A stretch of 64,000 bases of DNA, taken from NCBI RefSeq assembly GCF_000420345.1, contig NZ_ATUT01000001.1, positions 124,001 to 188,000 of the forward strand, given 5' to 3'. Position numbers and translations under genes: made by a program. Shown here piece by piece: positions 37,271 to 47,766 of this stretch; the stretch's first letter is position 1, and every line of letters begins with the position of its first letter. The stretch is from Faecalicoccus pleomorphus DSM 20574. Its GTDB lineage: Bacteria > Bacillota_I > Bacilli_A > Erysipelotrichales > Erysipelotrichaceae. Under the pieces are notes generated by a model. The model was not told where the DNA came from and ran no database searches. It saw only the letters and a program-made list of their open reading frames with translations.

Positions 37271-40200
37271 ATGAAACGTTTTAAGAAATTATCCACCACA
37301 TTTTTAACAACTGTACTACTGGCCTGTAATACGATCACCAGTCCGGGGTTTGAGGTATGGGCACAGGAAGAAAAGATTCCTATAGACAATCCATCGGATG
37401 TTGACAAATCCATCGAAGAACCGGTTGAAGAAACAATTGTTCCAGAAGAGCCAGCAGTAGAAGAACCGGTGATCAATGCGCCGAGTCAAAATCATGAAGT
37501 TTCAATACCACAAACCACCGCAGAAGAACCAGTTGAACAAGAACAATTTCCTTCTTTTGAAAAGTCCATCGATATGAAAGATGGACCAACGGTAAAAGTA
37601 AATGCACCAGAAGGTGCATTTCCACAGGGGATACAAGTGGATATCCAAAAAATAGATGTCGATACGATTTATGATCTTCTACATGCACAGGATGAAACCA
37701 TCAAAAAGGAAGAGGTAATCGCGCTTGATTTTGATTTCTATACAGAGAACTTGCATCATATAGAACCAAAACAAAAGATATCCATTACCCTGCAAAATCT
37801 GGATCTATCCAAAGATACAAAAGCCACTTTGTATCATTTACCAGATAAAAATGCCAAGCCTGAAAAAAAAGAACTTGCAACGTTCGATACCAATAAAAAA
37901 CTAATTACATTTGAAAGTTCTTCTTTCAGTATTTACGCTTTGATAGTATCTCCTACAGAAACAAGCGAGACTATCCAGCCGGAAACTGTAGTTACGCCGG
38001 AAGAACAGCCGGCAGAAGAAGTTGAAGAACCATCCAGTTCAACCGATTACTATGATTCTTCCATCAATTTAGCACCCGGTACCAGTGATGCTTATTATGG
38101 TGGTGAAATCATAACAGTCTATGACAACATTTCTATATCCGGAAACAATACCGTGGTACCCGAAGGCGCTTATACCATTGTCTCCTTACCAAAGGCATCG
38201 TTTCAAAAACCAAGAGAAAGTGAAGTTTCCACGTCCTTTGACAATTTTAAGAACTTAGAAATCAAAGAAACGGATACCGATTTTCAGATTGTCTTAACGT
38301 ATAAGACTTTATATGGCGGCTACAATGGGGGTACTCCCATTCGTGTAAATCTTTTACCGGGACAAGTTATCAATAATTCACAACATACAATCACCCAACA
38401 GTTCTTTAATAAAGATGGTAAAAAATTGACACAGGACAGTACCCAGATCATTAAGGCAAAGGCCACAATCGAAACTTTACAAAAGAAAGATTATGGAGCA
38501 ACACAATTGATTAAAGAAGTGGATTCTGATTTTGTGATTAAAGAAGGTACGTATGTGGATTTTATAGCTTATTACTACAGTGTTCATTCGAATAAAAATG
38601 ATCCACGAGATAGACGCCTATATGCGAAGATTCCCGAAGGAACCAAGGTGAAAGAAAATACGGGCTGGACGTATGAGCCAGAAACAAATCGATATTATAG
38701 AGATATTCCTAGAGATAAGTTTAATGATGGCTATGATTATACTCTAAGAAGATATAATACATATTATCGAACAATTACCTTGGATCTGGGAGGCATTGAT
38801 TTATCCAGTTATGATGCCTCCAACAAGTCAAAAGAATTTAGAGTCGATTTTAGTATACAGCCGGTTGTCGATGGTATCGTCCAAAATGATTTAGGACCAA
38901 ATACTGGTTACTACAGTAAACCTTATTATGTCTTAAAAGAAATACCCAAACCACAAGGTGCCTCGCCTAGCTGGGATATTGCGAAATATGAAAAAATCAT
39001 AGATAAAGATTATCAACCGATTGATGGGTCAACTTATCCAATAGATTTTACTTATAAGTATACGACTATTTCCTATAATAAGGATTATTTGTATACACAT
39101 CGTATGCGCTATACTTTAAAAAATATCTATGCCTGGTCTTTATCAAATGCCAATAGAGAAGATGAGAGTATTCGCGAATTGACCATCAGAGATTCCAGGG
39201 TGGATATTAGTCCTTATGTAGAACCGCATCAAATTCGTTTAATGGTGATAGGTTTAAATGAGGAGGATGCGAAATGGATGAAGGAACAATTAACTGGAAC
39301 AAAAGCGTATGGAATTACTTCATCCGGACAAAAGGTGCTGATCAGTGATCATGTACCGATCCATATAGATCGTTCCTATAATGATTCTTTTGATGGTGAA
39401 GACTGGCAGACACTTTCAAACACAGAAAATTATACAAAAGTAGAATTTGTTTATCCCAATGGCGGAGTGACTTTGAAAGGAAAAGATCAAATCGAATGCT
39501 GCAAGTATGCCATTTATTCGGATGTCATTGGCCGTGTAAAAGAATCTACCTACCAAACCTTAAAAGAAAAAATCGATGCACACCAAGAGGCATTGTTGGG
39601 AGACACCACTGAGTATGCGAATACCTCGATTACAACCAGATACTATAAGTTTGCCGGTGATACCGAGCTTACTTCCAAAGAGGATACTCGTCAATTTGCC
39701 TGGACCACTGATATTATTCGCATGCAAATAGAAAAAATTATCAGATATAATAGTCTATCTATCACAAATGGAAGCCAGTTTTTTACCAACGATACAATTT
39801 CTTTAAGTGAGATGTATAGGCATTCTAGAATCGGAAATTTTTCTGAAGCAACAGAGCCGAAAAATTTAAATGTTTATTATTTAGTCCCGGATGGACTAGA
39901 ACCCATAAAAAATACAAATACTTTTGAAAGTATCGAAGTCATTCGTGGATATAGAGATGGCATGAATTTAGTTATCGCCAAGCCAAAATCCATAACGATT
40001 CCTAAGCTAGATGGATCGTTGAGTCGAGATATATCTAATATCTTCGATTTGGACTTTACCGTCACGACTCGACTGGATATTGGAAAATATACCATATATT
40101 CTTGTATGTCTTACGATAATAATAAGATTGGTGTGGATCCAAACGGCAATCAATATGGGATTCTACAAGATTCGACACCAAGTGGGGTATGGAGTACGAT

Positions 40201-40963
40201 CTTAAAAGATGGTGCCAATCGACCAGATGATCCGACAAAGTTTACAAATTTTTATTCTTCTTCCTTTACCATTTATCCGCCGAAGGTTATATCGTCTATC
40301 AAGGAAGTGAAGTTGACTTCAGAGCCGGATTCCAAATATGCATCCTCTCTTGGCAGCAAGGCGACGATTGGGGATCAAATTGATTATCGATGGGTACTAA
40401 AGAATAACTCCAATGCACCGATCGATCAACTGGAAATTCTAGATATCTTACCGGATAAGGGGGATCATGCGATTGTTCATAACGATCTTGGTGAGTATCC
40501 GGCTCGTGGTTCTTCATTTACAACGCCGCTTCTTTCCATAGAGGACAATAGTAAATTTGATTATTACTATTCAACGGATCCGGTTAAACAAACGACACAG
40601 GAAAACTATAAGGTCAACTGGTCCAGCTCAGTCGATGATATGAGCAAGGTCACGATGATCAAGGCTGTCCTAAAGAAAGGACAAACGATACCGGTGGGAG
40701 AAAATGCGTATATCGTTACGCACAATCAAATTGTCAATGATCCTAAGATTCAGGACGGAGACAAGGCATATAACTCCTTTGCGTATACTTTGAATGAGGG
40801 AACATCTTTTATGGAAGCCTTGCGAACCGAAGTGCAGGTAACGTATCCAAAACGAGATGTATTGGTAGAAAAAGTGAACATGGAAGATGATTCGTATAAA
40901 TTATTTGGGGCACTTTTAATCTATACGAAGAAGGTACCGGAGAAAACGGAACGGATCGGTTGA
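37271..40963 (+). CDS. Giant surface protein, N-terminal part (frame broken near 40915)
   Basis: The 1230-residue product starts with a signal peptide (KKLSTTFLTTVLLACNTI, probable cleavage after VWA near residue 35), then a Pro/Glu-rich linker, a beta domain (VKVNAPEGAFPQGIQVDIQKI near 115), a second acidic linker and a long region of unrecognised beta-rich domains. Near 1190 a SpaA/Cna_B-like domain begins (VLVEKVNMEDDSYKLFGA) but stops abruptly after a few unrelated residues at 40963. Reading in the -1 frame from about 40913 restores the domain (FNLYEEGTGENG and so on) and joins the next frame. The intact protein would be about 1702 residues. It is predicted to be an extracellular adhesin or structural surface protein; ligand unknown. 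Confidence 0.85.
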   Translation: MKRFKKLSTTFLTTVLLACNTITSPGFEVWAQEEKIPIDNPSDVDKSIEEPVEETIVPEEPAVEEPVINAPSQNHEVSIPQTTAEEPVEQEQFPSFEKSIDMKDGPTVKVNAPEGAFPQGIQVDIQKIDVDTIYDLLHAQDETIKKEEVIALDFDFYTENLHHIEPKQKISITLQNLDLSKDTKATLYHLPDKNAKPEKKELATFDTNKKLITFESSSFSIYALIVSPTETSETIQPETVVTPEEQPAEEVEEPSSSTDYYDSSINLAPGTSDAYYGGEIITVYDNISISGNNTVVPEGAYTIVSLPKASFQKPRESEVSTSFDNFKNLEIKETDTDFQIVLTYKTLYGGYNGGTPIRVNLLPGQVINNSQHTITQQFFNKDGKKLTQDSTQIIKAKATIETLQKKDYGATQLIKEVDSDFVIKEGTYVDFIAYYYSVHSNKNDPRDRRLYAKIPEGTKVKENTGWTYEPETNRYYRDIPRDKFNDGYDYTLRRYNTYYRTITLDLGGIDLSSYDASNKSKEFRVDFSIQPVVDGIVQNDLGPNTGYYSKPYYVLKEIPKPQGASPSWDIAKYEKIIDKDYQPIDGSTYPIDFTYKYTTISYNKDYLYTHRMRYTLKNIYAWSLSNANREDESIRELTIRDSRVDISPYVEPHQIRLMVIGLNEEDAKWMKEQLTGTKAYGITSSGQKVLISDHVPIHIDRSYNDSFDGEDWQTLSNTENYTKVEFVYPNGGVTLKGKDQIECCKYAIYSDVIGRVKESTYQTLKEKIDAHQEALLGDTTEYANTSITTRYYKFAGDTELTSKEDTRQFAWTTDIIRMQIEKIIRYNSLSITNGSQFFTNDTISLSEMYRHSRIGNFSEATEPKNLNVYYLVPDGLEPIKNTNTFESIEVIRGYRDGMNLVIAKPKSITIPKLDGSLSRDISNIFDLDFTVTTRLDIGKYTIYSCMSYDNNKIGVDPNGNQYGILQDSTPSGVWSTILKDGANRPDDPTKFTNFYSSSFTIYPPKVISSIKEVKLTSEPDSKYASSLGSKATIGDQIDYRWVLKNNSNAPIDQLEILDILPDKGDHAIVHNDLGEYPARGSSFTTPLLSIEDNSKFDYYYSTDPVKQTTQENYKVNWSSSVDDMSKVTMIKAVLKKGQTIPVGENAYIVTHNQIVNDPKIQDGDKAYNSFAYTLNEGTSFMEALRTEVQVTYPKRDVLVEKVNMEDDSYKLFGALLIYTKKVPEKTERIG

Positions 40964-42378
40964 TCTTGTCGAATATCACAACAAACCATGATGGTATTGC
41001 CACACTTCCGAATTTATTTATTGGTAAGAAATATTATCTGCAAGAAGTTACAGCGCCGGAGGGGTATGTAAAATCGGATGCGAAGACATATTTTACTGTA
41101 GCAGAGCCAATCGATGCTTCCGATGTACAAAAAATCGTGATTCAAAATGATGTACCAAGAACATCCATGCGTCTTCAAAAAGAATGGATTGGACCGCAAA
41201 ACGTGCAGGAAGTGTCGGTTCATATTTTAGCCAATGAGAAGGATACAGGTCAAACAGTAGTCTTAAAGGCAGCCGATGGTTGGAAAACAAGTGTCAAAAA
41301 CTTACCAGTCAATGATAAAAACGGAAATCCTATCGCCTATTCCATTCAAGAGGAAGCAGGAAAGAATTATACATCATCTGTTCGTGGTGATATGGAAAAC
41401 GGTTTTGTCGTTACGAATACAAATACAGAGAAACGGGATATAGTTGTTTCTAAAGTTTGGATCGGGCCGAAACAGGACTCTGTACAAGTCACGCTTGTCA
41501 AAGATGGAACTTTAACGGATCAGACTTTGACCTTGCAGGAAGCGAATGAATGGAAGTCTTCTTTTGATTCTTTAATAAAATATGATGCGCTTGATGGCCA
41601 TGAAATTGTTTACAGCATTCAGGAACATGAATTGCCAAACTATGAGGTTTCGATTCAGGGGAATATGGAAAGTGGCTATGAACTCATAAATACCAACATG
41701 GAAACCCTATCGATTCTTGTTTCGAAAGTTTGGATTGGACCTGAACATGATACAATAGAAGTTACCTTGATCAAAGATGGAGAAAAAACGGATCAAACTT
41801 TGACATTGAATGCGGATAACGGATGGACTGATTCTTTTAGGAATCTGAACAAATATGATGTAGATGGTCATGAAATTGTTTATGGTATACAGGAACAAGA
41901 GTTGTCGGGTTATTCTTCCTCTGTACAAGGGGATATGACACATGGTTTTGTACTAACAAATACCAACATCAGTACTCGTACGATTACAGTAACCAAGAAA
42001 TGGGTAGGTCAAGAAGGAAAATCTGCGACCATCGTTTTATGCCAGGATGACAAGACTCTACAAACGGTGGTAATGACAAAAGAAAGCGGATGGACATATG
42101 CGTTTGAAGATTTACCGATGTATGATCCAATAGATGGTCATAAGATACAGTATGATGTCTTAGAACAAGAACAAGAGGGTTATACTTGCACAATGCAGGG
42201 AAACATGGATGAAGGTTTTGTGATTACCAATACACAGAATGCACCTTCTTATTCTAAGCAAAAGAAGTCTTCTACACCAACCAGTGAATCCTTTGATTCT
42301 ACTACGGTTATTGTCTTGGCTATCACAAGCATTGTGATGTTGATTGTGCTTTGGTTTATCAAACGAAAAAGGTTCTAA
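40960..42378 (+). CDS. Giant surface protein, C-terminal Cna_B part
   Basis: This 472-residue frame is the continuation of the protein above and has no ribosome site of its own. It completes the SpaA-like domain (YYLQEVTAPEGYVKS) and then carries four Cna_B repeats at residues about 67-156, 157-249, 250-339 and 340-428. Each repeat begins with a Lys-bearing strand (VSKVWIG), has a Glu in YxIQE or DVLEQE and ends in an Asn-bearing TNTN or TNTQ strand, the Lys-Glu-Asn set for an internal isopeptide bond. The C-terminus is one membrane helix (TTVIVLAITSIVMLIVLWFI) and KRKRF. No LPxTG-type sorting motif is visible before it. As it stands this part is unlikely to be made unless the frame is restored. 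Confidence 0.8.
   Translation: MILSNITTNHDGIATLPNLFIGKKYYLQEVTAPEGYVKSDAKTYFTVAEPIDASDVQKIVIQNDVPRTSMRLQKEWIGPQNVQEVSVHILANEKDTGQTVVLKAADGWKTSVKNLPVNDKNGNPIAYSIQEEAGKNYTSSVRGDMENGFVVTNTNTEKRDIVVSKVWIGPKQDSVQVTLVKDGTLTDQTLTLQEANEWKSSFDSLIKYDALDGHEIVYSIQEHELPNYEVSIQGNMESGYELINTNMETLSILVSKVWIGPEHDTIEVTLIKDGEKTDQTLTLNADNGWTDSFRNLNKYDVDGHEIVYGIQEQELSGYSSSVQGDMTHGFVLTNTNISTRTITVTKKWVGQEGKSATIVLCQDDKTLQTVVMTKESGWTYAFEDLPMYDPIDGHKIQYDVLEQEQEGYTCTMQGNMDEGFVITNTQNAPSYSKQKKSSTPTSESFDSTTVIVLAITSIVMLIVLWFIKRKRF
41158..42243 (+). repeat. Four tandem Cna_B repeats
   Basis: Four units of about 90 codons each encode related Cna_B domains; repeats 2 and 3 are most alike (both contain VSKVWIGP, DQTLTL and DGHEIVY). 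The DNA copies have diverged, so recent duplication is not indicated. Confidence 0.85.
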
Positions 42379-43749: not shown

Positions 43750-44475
43750 ATGGGAAGACATTTTGAAGTTCGTGCTGCTGCTATGCAGAAAACAGCGAAT
43801 CAGAAAGCTAAGATCTATTCAAGATATTCAAAAGAAATTTTGGTAGCTGCCAAAAACGGGGATCCAAACCCGGATATGAACCAGACTTTAAAGAAAGCCA
43901 TTGAACGTGCAAAAGCTAATAACGTTCCGGCAGATGTTATCAAACGTGCGATCGATAAGGCTAAATCCAGTGCCGATGAAAACTATTCGAGCGCCCGTTA
44001 TGAAGGCTTTGGTTCCGGTGGTGGAAGTACCATTATCATTGATTGTTTGACGGATAATCCTAATCGTACGATTGCAAACCTTCGTGCCTGCTTCAACAAA
44101 AGCCATGCGAAATTGGGCGTTGGTGGATCTGTAAGCTTTGGGTATGAACATTTAGGTGTTATCGTAATTCAGTACGATGATGAAGAAGCGATGATGGATT
44201 GTCTGATCAGTAAAGATATCGATCTAAAAGAAATCGAAATTGAAGATGGATATATGACAATTACAGTTGATCCGACACAGTTGGATGATGCCAAAGAAGC
44301 TGTGGAAGAATTGATTCCGGGTGTTAAGTTTGAAGTCCTGGAAAATAAGATGGTTCCAAACGAAACAGTTTCTTTAGAAGGAGAAGATTTGGATTTGTTC
44401 AAACGCCTTGTGACATTGTTGGATGATGTAGATGATGTACAGAACGTATATCATAATGTAGATAATTTAAACTAA
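43750..44475 (+). CDS. yebC: YebC/PmpR-family protein (TACO1-like)
   Basis: This 241-residue protein starts MGRHFEVRAAAMQKTANQKAKIYS and has KAKANNVPADVIKRAIDKAK-like helices and YEGFGSGGGSTIIIDCLTDNPNRT near 85, the family core. YebC proteins were described as transcription regulators and more recently as helpers of ribosomes at proline-rich stretches. The N-terminus is a variant of the usual GHSKWANI motif and resembles the YeeN-like branch. It is followed directly by the T-box leader. Confidence 0.93.
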   Translation: MGRHFEVRAAAMQKTANQKAKIYSRYSKEILVAAKNGDPNPDMNQTLKKAIERAKANNVPADVIKRAIDKAKSSADENYSSARYEGFGSGGGSTIIIDCLTDNPNRTIANLRACFNKSHAKLGVGGSVSFGYEHLGVIVIQYDDEEAMMDCLISKDIDLKEIEIEDGYMTITVDPTQLDDAKEAVEELIPGVKFEVLENKMVPNETVSLEGEDLDLFKRLVTLLDDVDDVQNVYHNVDNLN

Positions 44476-44484
44476 TTCGTTGAA

Positions 44485-44676
44485 GAAGAGAAATCTGTAA
44501 AACAGATGTAGAGAAGATCTGGCTGGTGAAAAGATCGGATGGGTTACAGATGGGACACTTTGGAGAAATCAGTGAAAAGCTGATCGTTGGTCGCGTTAAG
44601 ACATAAGTGCATACACTTTGTGTATGAAGTAAGGTGGTACCGCGTGAAAACGTCCTTATATATAAGGGCGTTTTTT
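44485..44676 (+). ncRNA. T-box riboswitch controlling hisS-aspS
   Basis: The leader has the parts of a T-box element. A stem I apical region carries GGCTGGTGAAAAG (44521-44533); the candidate specifier GGGACACTTT lies at 44552-44560; the T-box sequence AAGGTGGTACCGCG lies at 44631-44644; a terminator stem (CGTCCTTA 44651-44658 with TAAGGGCG 44663-44670) precedes six T. Uncharged tRNA pairing with the specifier and the antiterminator bulge permits read-through. Within GACAC the Asp codon GAC and the His codon CAC overlap. GAC is followed by A, and the antiterminator base after TGG is T, which could wobble with the Asp-tRNA discriminator G but not the His-tRNA C, so Asp is favoured. Confidence 0.92.
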
Positions 44677-44701
44677 ATTTTATAGAAAGAAAGGTGAAAC
44701 T

Positions 44702-46012
44702 ATGTCGTACCAGATACCAAGAGGATGTCAGGATATTCTTCCTGAACAAAGCTTTGCCTGGCAAAGCTTAGAGAGAACATTAAGAGAATTCTGTTATTTG
44801 TATAACTATGATGAGATTCGTACACCAATTTTTGAACACACGAATGTATTTAAAAGAGAAAATGATTCCAGTGATATGGTCAATAAGGAAATGTACACCT
44901 TCAAACTGGAGAACTCAAAAACTTCGTTAACGATTCGTCCGGAAGGAACTGCAGGTGTCGTTCGTTCCTTTGTCGAAAATAAGATGTATGCCAATCCGGA
45001 TCTTCCTGTTAAGTTATATTATATGGGCCCAATGGCAAGACATGAACGCCCGCAAAAGGGAAGACTTCGTATCTTTAATCAGTTTGGCGTAGAATGTCTG
45101 GGAAATAAAAGTCCTTATACGGATGTAGAAACCATTGCTTTGGCTTTTTCTATTTTAAAGGCTTTAGGCTTACAGGACTTAAAGGTTTGTTTGAATACTT
45201 TAGGCGATGATGATTCCAGAGCTAATTACCGACAGGCATTAAAAGATTATTTTGCACCGTATAAAGAGGAATTATGCTCGGATTGTAAACGTCGTTATGA
45301 ACAAAATCCTTTGCGTATTTTAGACTGTAAAGTGGATAAAGACAAAGAGTGCATGAAACATGTACCAAAAATGAAAGATTACTTAAACGAGGAAAGTAAG
45401 TCTTATTTTGATACAGTTTGTGCATTATTGGATGAACTGGAGATTCCCTATGAAATTGATGATCAGCTGGTGCGTGGTTTAGATTACTATACACACACTG
45501 TATTTGAGATCGTTTCTTTGAATAAAGAAATGGGCGCACAATCCACTGTTTTGGCAGGGGGCCGCTATGATGGTTTAATTCCATATTTTGGTGGACCGGA
45601 AGCCATGAGCGGTATCGGTTGGGCCTTAGGAATGGAGCGTTTACTGATTGCTTTGGAAGCAGAAGGGATCGAACTGGGACAAAAACCGGATCTGGATGTC
45701 TTTGTGATGTGTCTGGATGAAGAAGCCAGAACTTATGCCTTTAAAGCCCTAACAGAACTAAGAGCCTATGGATATCGCTGTGAAATGGATATGTTAGGAC
45801 GTGGTTTTAAAGGACAGTTTAAGGCAGCGGATCGAAGTCATGCACAATTTGCCTTGTTGTTGGGAAATAAGGAAGCACTGGATCAAACGATCACGATCAA
45901 AAACCTGAAAGAGAAAACACAGGAAACAATTGCGCGTGAAGCGTTGATTGGCTATGTGGATGCCCACATGGAAGAAGAACATGAACTTCATCATCAGGAG
46001 GAAGAGGAATGA
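44702..46012 (+). CDS. hisS: Histidyl-tRNA synthetase
   Basis: This 436-residue class II synthetase charges tRNA-His. Motif 1 follows IPRGCQDILPEQSFAW; motif 2 is near YYMGPMARHERPQKGRLRIFNQFGVE; the histidine-binding LVRGLDYYTHTVFEIV lies near 260 and motif 3 in GIGWALGMERLLIAL near 305. The C-terminal anticodon-binding domain is complete. It is under T-box control and overlaps aspS by 4 bases (ATGA). Confidence 0.97.
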   Translation: MSYQIPRGCQDILPEQSFAWQSLERTLREFCYLYNYDEIRTPIFEHTNVFKRENDSSDMVNKEMYTFKLENSKTSLTIRPEGTAGVVRSFVENKMYANPDLPVKLYYMGPMARHERPQKGRLRIFNQFGVECLGNKSPYTDVETIALAFSILKALGLQDLKVCLNTLGDDDSRANYRQALKDYFAPYKEELCSDCKRRYEQNPLRILDCKVDKDKECMKHVPKMKDYLNEESKSYFDTVCALLDELEIPYEIDDQLVRGLDYYTHTVFEIVSLNKEMGAQSTVLAGGRYDGLIPYFGGPEAMSGIGWALGMERLLIALEAEGIELGQKPDLDVFVMCLDEEARTYAFKALTELRAYGYRCEMDMLGRGFKGQFKAADRSHAQFALLLGNKEALDQTITIKNLKEKTQETIAREALIGYVDAHMEEEHELHHQEEEE

Positions 46013-47766
46013 AACGAACACATTCAAACGGAGAACTTCGACTAAGCCATGTCGGTCAGCACGTGGATTTAGTCGGATGGGTTTCTAAAAAAAGAAACTT
46101 CGGACAGTTAAACTTTATTGATTTGCGTGATCGCAGTGGAATTTGCCAGCTGCTTTTTGATGAAACATTTAGTGAGACTTTAAAAAATGTGCGTAACGAA
46201 TATGTATTATCGGTTTCCGGAACTGTCGTAGAACGTAAGGATAAAAATCCGGATTTGGCAACCGGCGATATTGAAGTACAGGTCGATCAAGTAACGGTTG
46301 TGAATGAGGCAAAAACGACACCTTTGATCATTGCCGATGAAACCGATGCTTTAGAAGATACACGCTTAGAGTATCGTTATTTGGATCTAAGACGTCCGAT
46401 TATGCAAAAGAAATTGATGATGCGTCATCAGATTACACGAAGTATGCGTGATTACTTAGACAACCATGCCTTTATTGAAATTGAAACACCAATGCTAGGA
46501 AAAAGTACACCAGAAGGAGCTCGTGACTATTTAGTGCCAAGCCGCGTACATCCGGGAAGTTTCTATGCATTACCACAATCACCACAGCTTTATAAACAGC
46601 TTTTAATGATCAGTGGCTTTGAGCGCTATTATCAGTTTGCCCGCTGTTTTCGTGATGAAGATTTAAGAGCCGATCGTCAAACCGACTTTACACAGGTTGA
46701 TATTGAAACCAGCTTCTTAACTGAAAACGAAATTTTGACCATGATGGAAGAAATGATGAAAAAGCTGATGAAGGAAGTAAAAGGGTTGGATATTGAAACG
46801 CCATTCCTACGTTTGACTTATAAAGAGGCAATGAATCGTTATGGTAGTGATAAACCAGACAATCGATTTGGATTGGAGCTGCAGGAAATCACATCTATTT
46901 TTGAACATACGGAATTCGGTGTCTTTAAATCGGTTGTCGAAGCAAAAGGAAGTATCAAAGCCATTGTTGTACCAGATTTTGCCCATATCACCAGAAAACA
47001 AATCGATGCCTTTACTAACCTTGCGAAAAAGAACGGAGCCAAAGGGCTTGTAGTCTTAAAGGCCGTGGATCAGGATTTGACCGGTTCGGCTCGTAAATTC
47101 TTATCAGATGACGAAGTAAAAGCATTATACGAAACTTTAAATCTGAAGGATCAGGATTGTGTATTTATCGTTAGTGATACATGGTCTAGGACTTGCACTG
47201 TTCTTGGTGCTCTGCGTAATGAAATCGGCCAGCAGCTGGGCTTAAAGAAAAAGAATGAATTCTCATTCTTGTGGGTTACGGAATTTCCAATGTTTGAGTA
47301 TTCGGAAGAGTTAGGACGTTATCAGGCACTCCATCATCCATTTACACAGCCAATGGAAGAAGATATTCCTTTACTGGATACGGATATTGAGACGGTTCGT
47401 GCCAATGCCTACGATATCATCTTAAACGGCTATGAATTAGGTGGAGGAAGTCTTCGTATCTATGACAACAAGCTGCAGGAGAAAATCTTTGAATTGTTAG
47501 GTTTTACTGAAGAACAAATCAAAGATAAATTCGGGTTCTTTATCGATGCCTTCCAATATGGTACACCACCACATGGAGGATTGGCCTTTGGTTTGGATCG
47601 TATTGCGATGATTTTAACAGAAAGTGACTCCATTCGTGATGTTATCGCATTCCCGAAAAATGCCAATGCGAAATGTCCGATGTCCAAAGCACCGACACCG
47701 GTTGATCCGGCACAGTTAAAAGAGTTGCACATTCAGATTACAGAAAAAGAAAAAACAGAAGATTAA
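46009..47766 (+). CDS. aspS: Aspartyl-tRNA synthetase
   Basis: This 585-residue bacterial-type enzyme has an N-terminal OB-fold for the anticodon (residues 1-105), the class II core with RYLDLRRPIMQKK near 125, FARCFRDEDLRADRQTDFTQVD near 210 and GLAFGLDRIAMIL near 525, and the bacterial GAD insertion domain. It is translated together with hisS. Whether it is discriminating or also charges tRNA-Asn is not settled by sequence alone. Confidence 0.97.
   Translation: MKRTHSNGELRLSHVGQHVDLVGWVSKKRNFGQLNFIDLRDRSGICQLLFDETFSETLKNVRNEYVLSVSGTVVERKDKNPDLATGDIEVQVDQVTVVNEAKTTPLIIADETDALEDTRLEYRYLDLRRPIMQKKLMMRHQITRSMRDYLDNHAFIEIETPMLGKSTPEGARDYLVPSRVHPGSFYALPQSPQLYKQLLMISGFERYYQFARCFRDEDLRADRQTDFTQVDIETSFLTENEILTMMEEMMKKLMKEVKGLDIETPFLRLTYKEAMNRYGSDKPDNRFGLELQEITSIFEHTEFGVFKSVVEAKGSIKAIVVPDFAHITRKQIDAFTNLAKKNGAKGLVVLKAVDQDLTGSARKFLSDDEVKALYETLNLKDQDCVFIVSDTWSRTCTVLGALRNEIGQQLGLKKKNEFSFLWVTEFPMFEYSEELGRYQALHHPFTQPMEEDIPLLDTDIETVRANAYDIILNGYELGGGSLRIYDNKLQEKIFELLGFTEEQIKDKFGFFIDAFQYGTPPHGGLAFGLDRIAMILTESDSIRDVIAFPKNANAKCPMSKAPTPVDPAQLKELHIQITEKEKTED

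Follow-up and report, generated by a model that had tools for sequence, protein, structure and literature searches.

The window, a stretch of 64,000 nucleotides from Faecalicoccus pleomorphus DSM 20574, carries on its forward strand the histidine-tRNA ligase gene hisS (44702 to 46012; TIGR00442, 472.5 bits compared to a cutoff of 286.75) and the aspartate-tRNA ligase gene aspS (46009 to 47766; NF001750, 844 bits compared to a cutoff of 443; also TIGR00459). Upstream of hisS, on the same strand, lies a T-box leader (44471 to 44660) that matches the whole of the Rfam covariance model RF00230 at 102.6 bits, above the gathering score of 93 (E = 1.6e-21). It is one of 21 T-box matches in the genome at an E value of ≤0.001, 16 of which are above the gathering score. 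Toward its 3′ end are the antiterminator bulge UGGU for the NCCA end of a tRNA (44635 to 44638, seen in the sequence and in the Rfam alignment) and, 3′ of the antiterminator as is expected for the class, an intrinsic-terminator-like hairpin with a U run (44646 to 44675). The T-box match starts inside the last codons of an upstream YebC/PmpR-family gene (43750 to 44475), which it overlaps at 44471 to 44475, and a promoter scan, in itself uninformative, detected no sigma-70-like promoter within 44300 to 44720. Therefore, hisS and aspS may use an upstream promoter.

Positions 44552 to 44561 of the leader read GGGACACTTT. Here an Asp codon, GAC (44554 to 44556), and a His codon, CAC (44556 to 44558), overlap with C44556 common to both, and each of the two codons in GACAC has its own gene downstream. 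The earlier note on this DNA had described a T-box specifier with overlapping GAC and CAC codons before hisS-aspS, and the letters, RF00230, TIGR00442, and NF001750 all bear this description out. The purine that it had placed after GAC is A44557, a spacer position occupied by G in 6 of the 76 leaders compared below. Such an overlap might indicate a two-codon T-box, in which uncharged tRNA-Asp would read GAC and uncharged tRNA-His would read CAC, and a shortage of either would turn on both synthetase genes. The presence of both cognate genes downstream speaks for such dual sensing.

The register of the specifier was counted backwards from the GGAG-like box at the end of Stem I. In the window leader this box is GGAG at 44562 to 44565 (sequence and Rfam alignment), which we take to be the 3′ side of the GA/kink-turn motif. 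Of the 14 other T-boxes in the genome that could be assigned to a gene, 13 place their cognate codon 8 to 6 bases 5′ of the box, with GGAG, TGAG, TGAA, and GGAA accepted as boxes and the fitting one chosen among the 1 to 4 candidates of each leader. The codons found at this place are AGC for serS, CAC for hisZ, GTA for valS, ATG for metG, ATC for ileS, TAC for tyrS, AAA for lysS, GCT for alaS, ACT for thrS, TTC for pheS, CTC for leuS, CGT for argG, and CTC for leuA. Six of the 20 other T-boxes (L003, L012, L013, L015, L018, and L021) were not used because their gene was either not firmly tied to one amino acid or not scanned. The exception to the register is the asnS T-box (L019; G000:C25:17735-17937), with ACA at 8 to 6 and AAC at 9 to 7. 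Another AAC is found 6 to 4 bases before the asnS box, where it would take in the closing C. In the hisS-aspS leader, the usual place 8 to 6 bases 5′ of the box holds GAC, the codon of the second gene downstream, and not CAC, whose reading would take a two-base shift using A44557 and C44558.

The last base of the overlapping CAC is placed by structural models in the closing helix of the specifier loop. The 5′ strand of this helix is GAAGAG (44485 to 44490), seen in the minimum-energy fold, the Rfam alignment, and a helix search, and its 3′ strand is CUUU (44558 to 44561), as found by the helix search across the 76 leaders. Above the loop, AUCUGU (44493 to 44498) pairs with ACAGAU (44546 to 44551) in both the Rfam alignment and the minimum-energy fold. 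The CAC triplet is thus made up of the last specifier base, the spacer A, and the closing-helix C44558, and is probably incidental. According to the Rfam alignment, the specifier loop is closed by pairing of the 5′ strand with the four bases that precede the GGAG box. C44558 likewise has a G partner in the minimum-energy fold of 44471 to 44680 (z-score of −2.75; 2 of 200 shuffled sequences did as well). Which G is the partner depends on the model (minimum-energy fold, G44485; Rfam alignment, G44488; helix search, G44490), and the register of the helix is therefore ambiguous. A complementary 5′ strand adjoining the further helix is present in 65 of the 76 leaders; when the 3′ strand was swapped among leaders for 200 rounds as a control, this number averaged 32 and never exceeded 41. 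No matching 5′ strand was found by the helix search in the other 11. The closing helix also covaries, with CUUU/AAAG, CUUG/CAAG, CUCC/GGAG, and CCCG/CGGG interchanging among leaders. That its first pair is C-G in 65 of 65 follows by construction, since the search requires a pair there. Folding Stem I with a T-box covariance model had been put forward in the earlier note as a check on the specifier, and in the RF00230 match C44558 falls in the loop-closing stem with GAC at the usual specifier place.

The leaders used for comparison came from the best 80 of 186 HisS relatives, labeled nearly all as Erysipelotrichaceae or Erysipelotrichales. An AspS match accompanies HisS in 79 of the 80 loci, and the remaining locus stops 2 bases past the HisS match. 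Together with the window, the 75 relatives that have an upstream T-box gave 76 leaders, found by a pattern of GAC, then A/G, then C/T/G, with the five left-out loci inspected by eye. Four of these five (L037 to L040, from Ileibacterium, Allobaculum, and kin) showed no recognizable T-box 5′ of hisS, whether by pattern or by eye, although an AspS match is present, and the fifth (L068) offers only 95 bases before hisS. In two leaders (L090 and L101), a GACAC within the searched range was taken as the specifier. The closest HisS to that of the window among the 76 tree rows, from an uncultured Faecalicoccus, is 83% identical.

GAC is kept in all 76 leaders. The pentamers are GACAC in 67, GACGC in 6, GACAG in 2, and GACAT in 1. 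The His codon is thus retained in 68 leaders, which favors dual sensing, and lost in 8 (the GACGC and GACAG leaders) with GAC kept, which argues against it. In these eight, the AspS match begins 27 to 114 bases past the HisS match. The losses correspond to five changes on the HisS tree (FastTree), at least four of them forced by well-supported branches. A similar picture came from a wider sample of the class, in which 30 further leaders, partly from the same species and all with GAC by construction because the script pattern required it, read GACAC in 26, GACAT in 1, GACAA in 2, and GACCC in 1, with the His codon in 27. These 30 were read (L146 by eye) from 50 loci (L132 to L161 and L222 to L241) after exclusion of L132, which is the window, L137, the same leader as L241, and 18 without a T-box recognizable by pattern. 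A phylum-wide HisS search matched 119 of 120 genomes, and all genomes listed belong to the same class; the comparison therefore covers hisS-aspS leaders of this class.

Is CAC special to histidine? Control T-boxes suggest that its frequency is not. First, the tyrS T-boxes of the order read TACAC in 24 of 26 cases, giving the same CAC, and TACAG in the other 2 (the 30 best of 57 matches, less 4 without TAC and a box). Seven of these tyrS leaders read TACACTTTGGAG compared to GACACTTTGGAG in the window leader. Since CAC is as frequent in tyrS T-boxes as in the hisS-aspS leaders (24 of 26 compared to 67 of 76), its frequency by itself is no indication of histidine. As judged from this one control gene, A-C can persist after a specifier without a histidine reason. 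Second, the hisZ T-boxes (the 30 best of 62 matches, less 9 without a T-box match) have CAC at the usual specifier place in 21 of 21, and the window's own genome has such a hisZ T-box, a His sensor in the regular register. Third, only 1 of these 21 hisZ leaders has A-C after the specifier, as do 5 of 19 other T-boxes from the window's genome (the leuA, tyrS, lysS, alaS, and TrpX leaders, with the usual register applied, asnS excluded, and the TrpX leader read by eye). A-C is thus one of several common endings after the specifier. Its rarity in hisZ and in the other T-boxes of the genome favors dual sensing, so we raised the weight given to that reading slightly and lowered that of an Asp sensor from 0.88 to 0.86.

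The antiterminator bulge provides another line of evidence. The fourth bulge base in the 76 hisS-aspS leaders is T in 64 (UGGT) and C in 12 (UGGC) and never A or G, and all 30 further leaders of the class likewise have UGGT or UGGC. In the 21 hisZ T-boxes it is A in 19, T in 1, and G in 1, a difference that argues against a His-tRNA ligand for the hisS-aspS leaders. The earlier note had assigned G73 to tRNA-Asp and C73 to tRNA-His, and this was found to be so in the genome (GUC and GUG anticodons, respectively; the scan covered the loci of the 30 best among 43 tRNA matches). G73 of tRNA-Asp can be matched by either bulge base, T through a wobble and C through a Watson-Crick pair. Among the other leaders of the genome for G73 tRNAs, those of TrpX and asnS and two that have an Arg codon carry T, and that of serS carries C. 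The note had further argued from the discriminator base that the bulge favors Asp. This stands insofar as UGGU at 44635 to 44638 fits G73 by wobble and does not fit C73, but it does not amount to a strict pairing rule, as UGGA in 19 of 21 hisZ T-boxes makes clear. The bulge base separates hisS-aspS from hisZ T-boxes, even though A is also unable to pair with C73.

Taken together, the leader is best explained as a T-box riboswitch that acts on transcription in response to uncharged tRNA-Asp(GUC), a reading to which we assign a probability of about 0.86. Comparison of leaders supplied the element itself, its register, its conservation, the losses of the His codon, and the UGGN pattern. From these we infer tRNA binding, read-through, and a lack of response to histidine. 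The tRNA-Asp anticodon would pair with GAC at 44554 to 44556, and the GCCA end of the uncharged tRNA would pair with UGGU in the bulge, with a G73-U wobble. This second pairing would stabilize the antiterminator and let transcription proceed past the terminator into hisS and aspS. Because an Asp-sensing leader would lie upstream of both genes, aspartate shortage most likely raises hisS along with aspS. The view that Asp is the main signal, already held in the earlier note, thus gains support from the register of GAC, its presence in all 76 leaders, and UGGU or UGGC in every one of them. The companion proposal of CAC as a second specifier was not supported, given that GAC occupies the usual place, C44558 lies in the predicted stem, 8 of 76 leaders have lost the His codon, and tyrS leaders have the same CAC. 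Dual sensing of tRNA-Asp and tRNA-His by this leader is unlikely, and the overlapping CAC is probably not a second sensor.

The specifier loop of the window leader differs from the RF00230 consensus in being shorter and in missing the AGUA and GAA strings of loop E. Judged by string counts, which are not structures, both strings are present in 0 of the 76 hisS-aspS leaders compared to 25 of 26 tyrS and 18 of 21 hisZ leaders of the same order; GAA alone occurs in 4 and AGTA alone in 13 of the 76. This absence was noted within 44485 to 44557 of the window and in the hisS-aspS leaders of L022 to L101. In at least 52 of 65 leaders, the specifier loop has 1 to 4 bases on its 5′ side and 0 to 2 before GAC (helix search, 15 commonest sizes). 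Loop E is not obligatory for a T-box, being present in most but not all of them (PMC4695836). Elsewhere in the class, both strings are found in 7 of 8 hisS-aspS leaders of one family (f9), reading GAA-GAC-A, and in 0 of 19 of three others (f1, f2, and f13). The f9 leaders, in which GAC directly follows GAA, also confirm the GAC register. The Stem II strings GAA...AGTA are found in 0 of 20 leaders of the window and L022 to L044 and in 37 of 76 overall. As they are also missing from 24 of 26 tyrS leaders, no inference was drawn from their absence.

Without the AGUA/GAA loop E, codon presentation in these leaders may differ from that in the solved structures, and it would be useful to compare their structure with those of solved T-boxes. 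No report of loop E loss in hisS-aspS leaders was found in the titles and abstract openings of the literature matches listed, a result that falls short of proving that no such report exists. A further possibility is that the compact loop presents the codon otherwise and that a two-base slip might allow tRNA-His to read CAC in the leaders that retain it. The leader would then be a graded two-tRNA sensor, lost several times by relatives. We regard this as improbable, more so than plain two-codon sensing. The weakest alternative, a His T-box with CAC as its specifier and GAC as the incidental codon, has in its favor that hisS is the first gene and that most leaders retain the His codon but is very unlikely given that GAC is never lost, sits in the usual register, and comes right after GAA in 7 of 8 f9 leaders, that 8 of 76 leaders lack the His codon, and that the UGGN bulge is unlike that of hisZ T-boxes.

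Reading GACAC mainly as Asp is already in print, and the hisS-aspS leader is, in these terms, an ordinary Asp T-box. Gutierrez-Preciado et al. (2009), as reported in a passage of PMC5313534, suggested mainly an aspartyl-tRNA ligand for a hisS-aspS T-box with GACAC. The present leader shares with those T-boxes the gene order, the GACAC sequence, and tRNA-Asp as the main ligand. That passage names bacilli and lactobacilli among others, whereas the leaders described here come from Erysipelotrichaceae and kin and have a loop without AGUA/GAA. In contrast to the Asp reading, a passage in PMC7927825 counts the hisS-aspS T-box among the histidine T-boxes. A precedent for dual sensing is the two-codon T-box of Clostridium acetobutylicum, for which Saad et al. 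(2013), as cited in a review (PMC4052509), reported binding of both tRNA-Asn and tRNA-Glu. It likewise has a specifier loop in which two codon positions overlap. However, both tRNAs reportedly bind there, whereas for the hisS-aspS leader some relatives have lost the second codon, which is placed partly in a helix. Because a specifier ending in C followed by A and the closing C always yields CAC, overlapping codons alone are weak evidence for dual sensing, and specifiers should be assigned from them with caution. The natural GACGC, GACAG, and GACAA leaders offer ready-made controls for dual sensing.

Elsewhere in the window, two open reading frames (37271 to 40963 and 40960 to 42378) overlap by 4 bases, the second starting at TTG. 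Judged by their translations alone, they resemble a single repeat-rich surface adhesin that carries an apparent frameshift.
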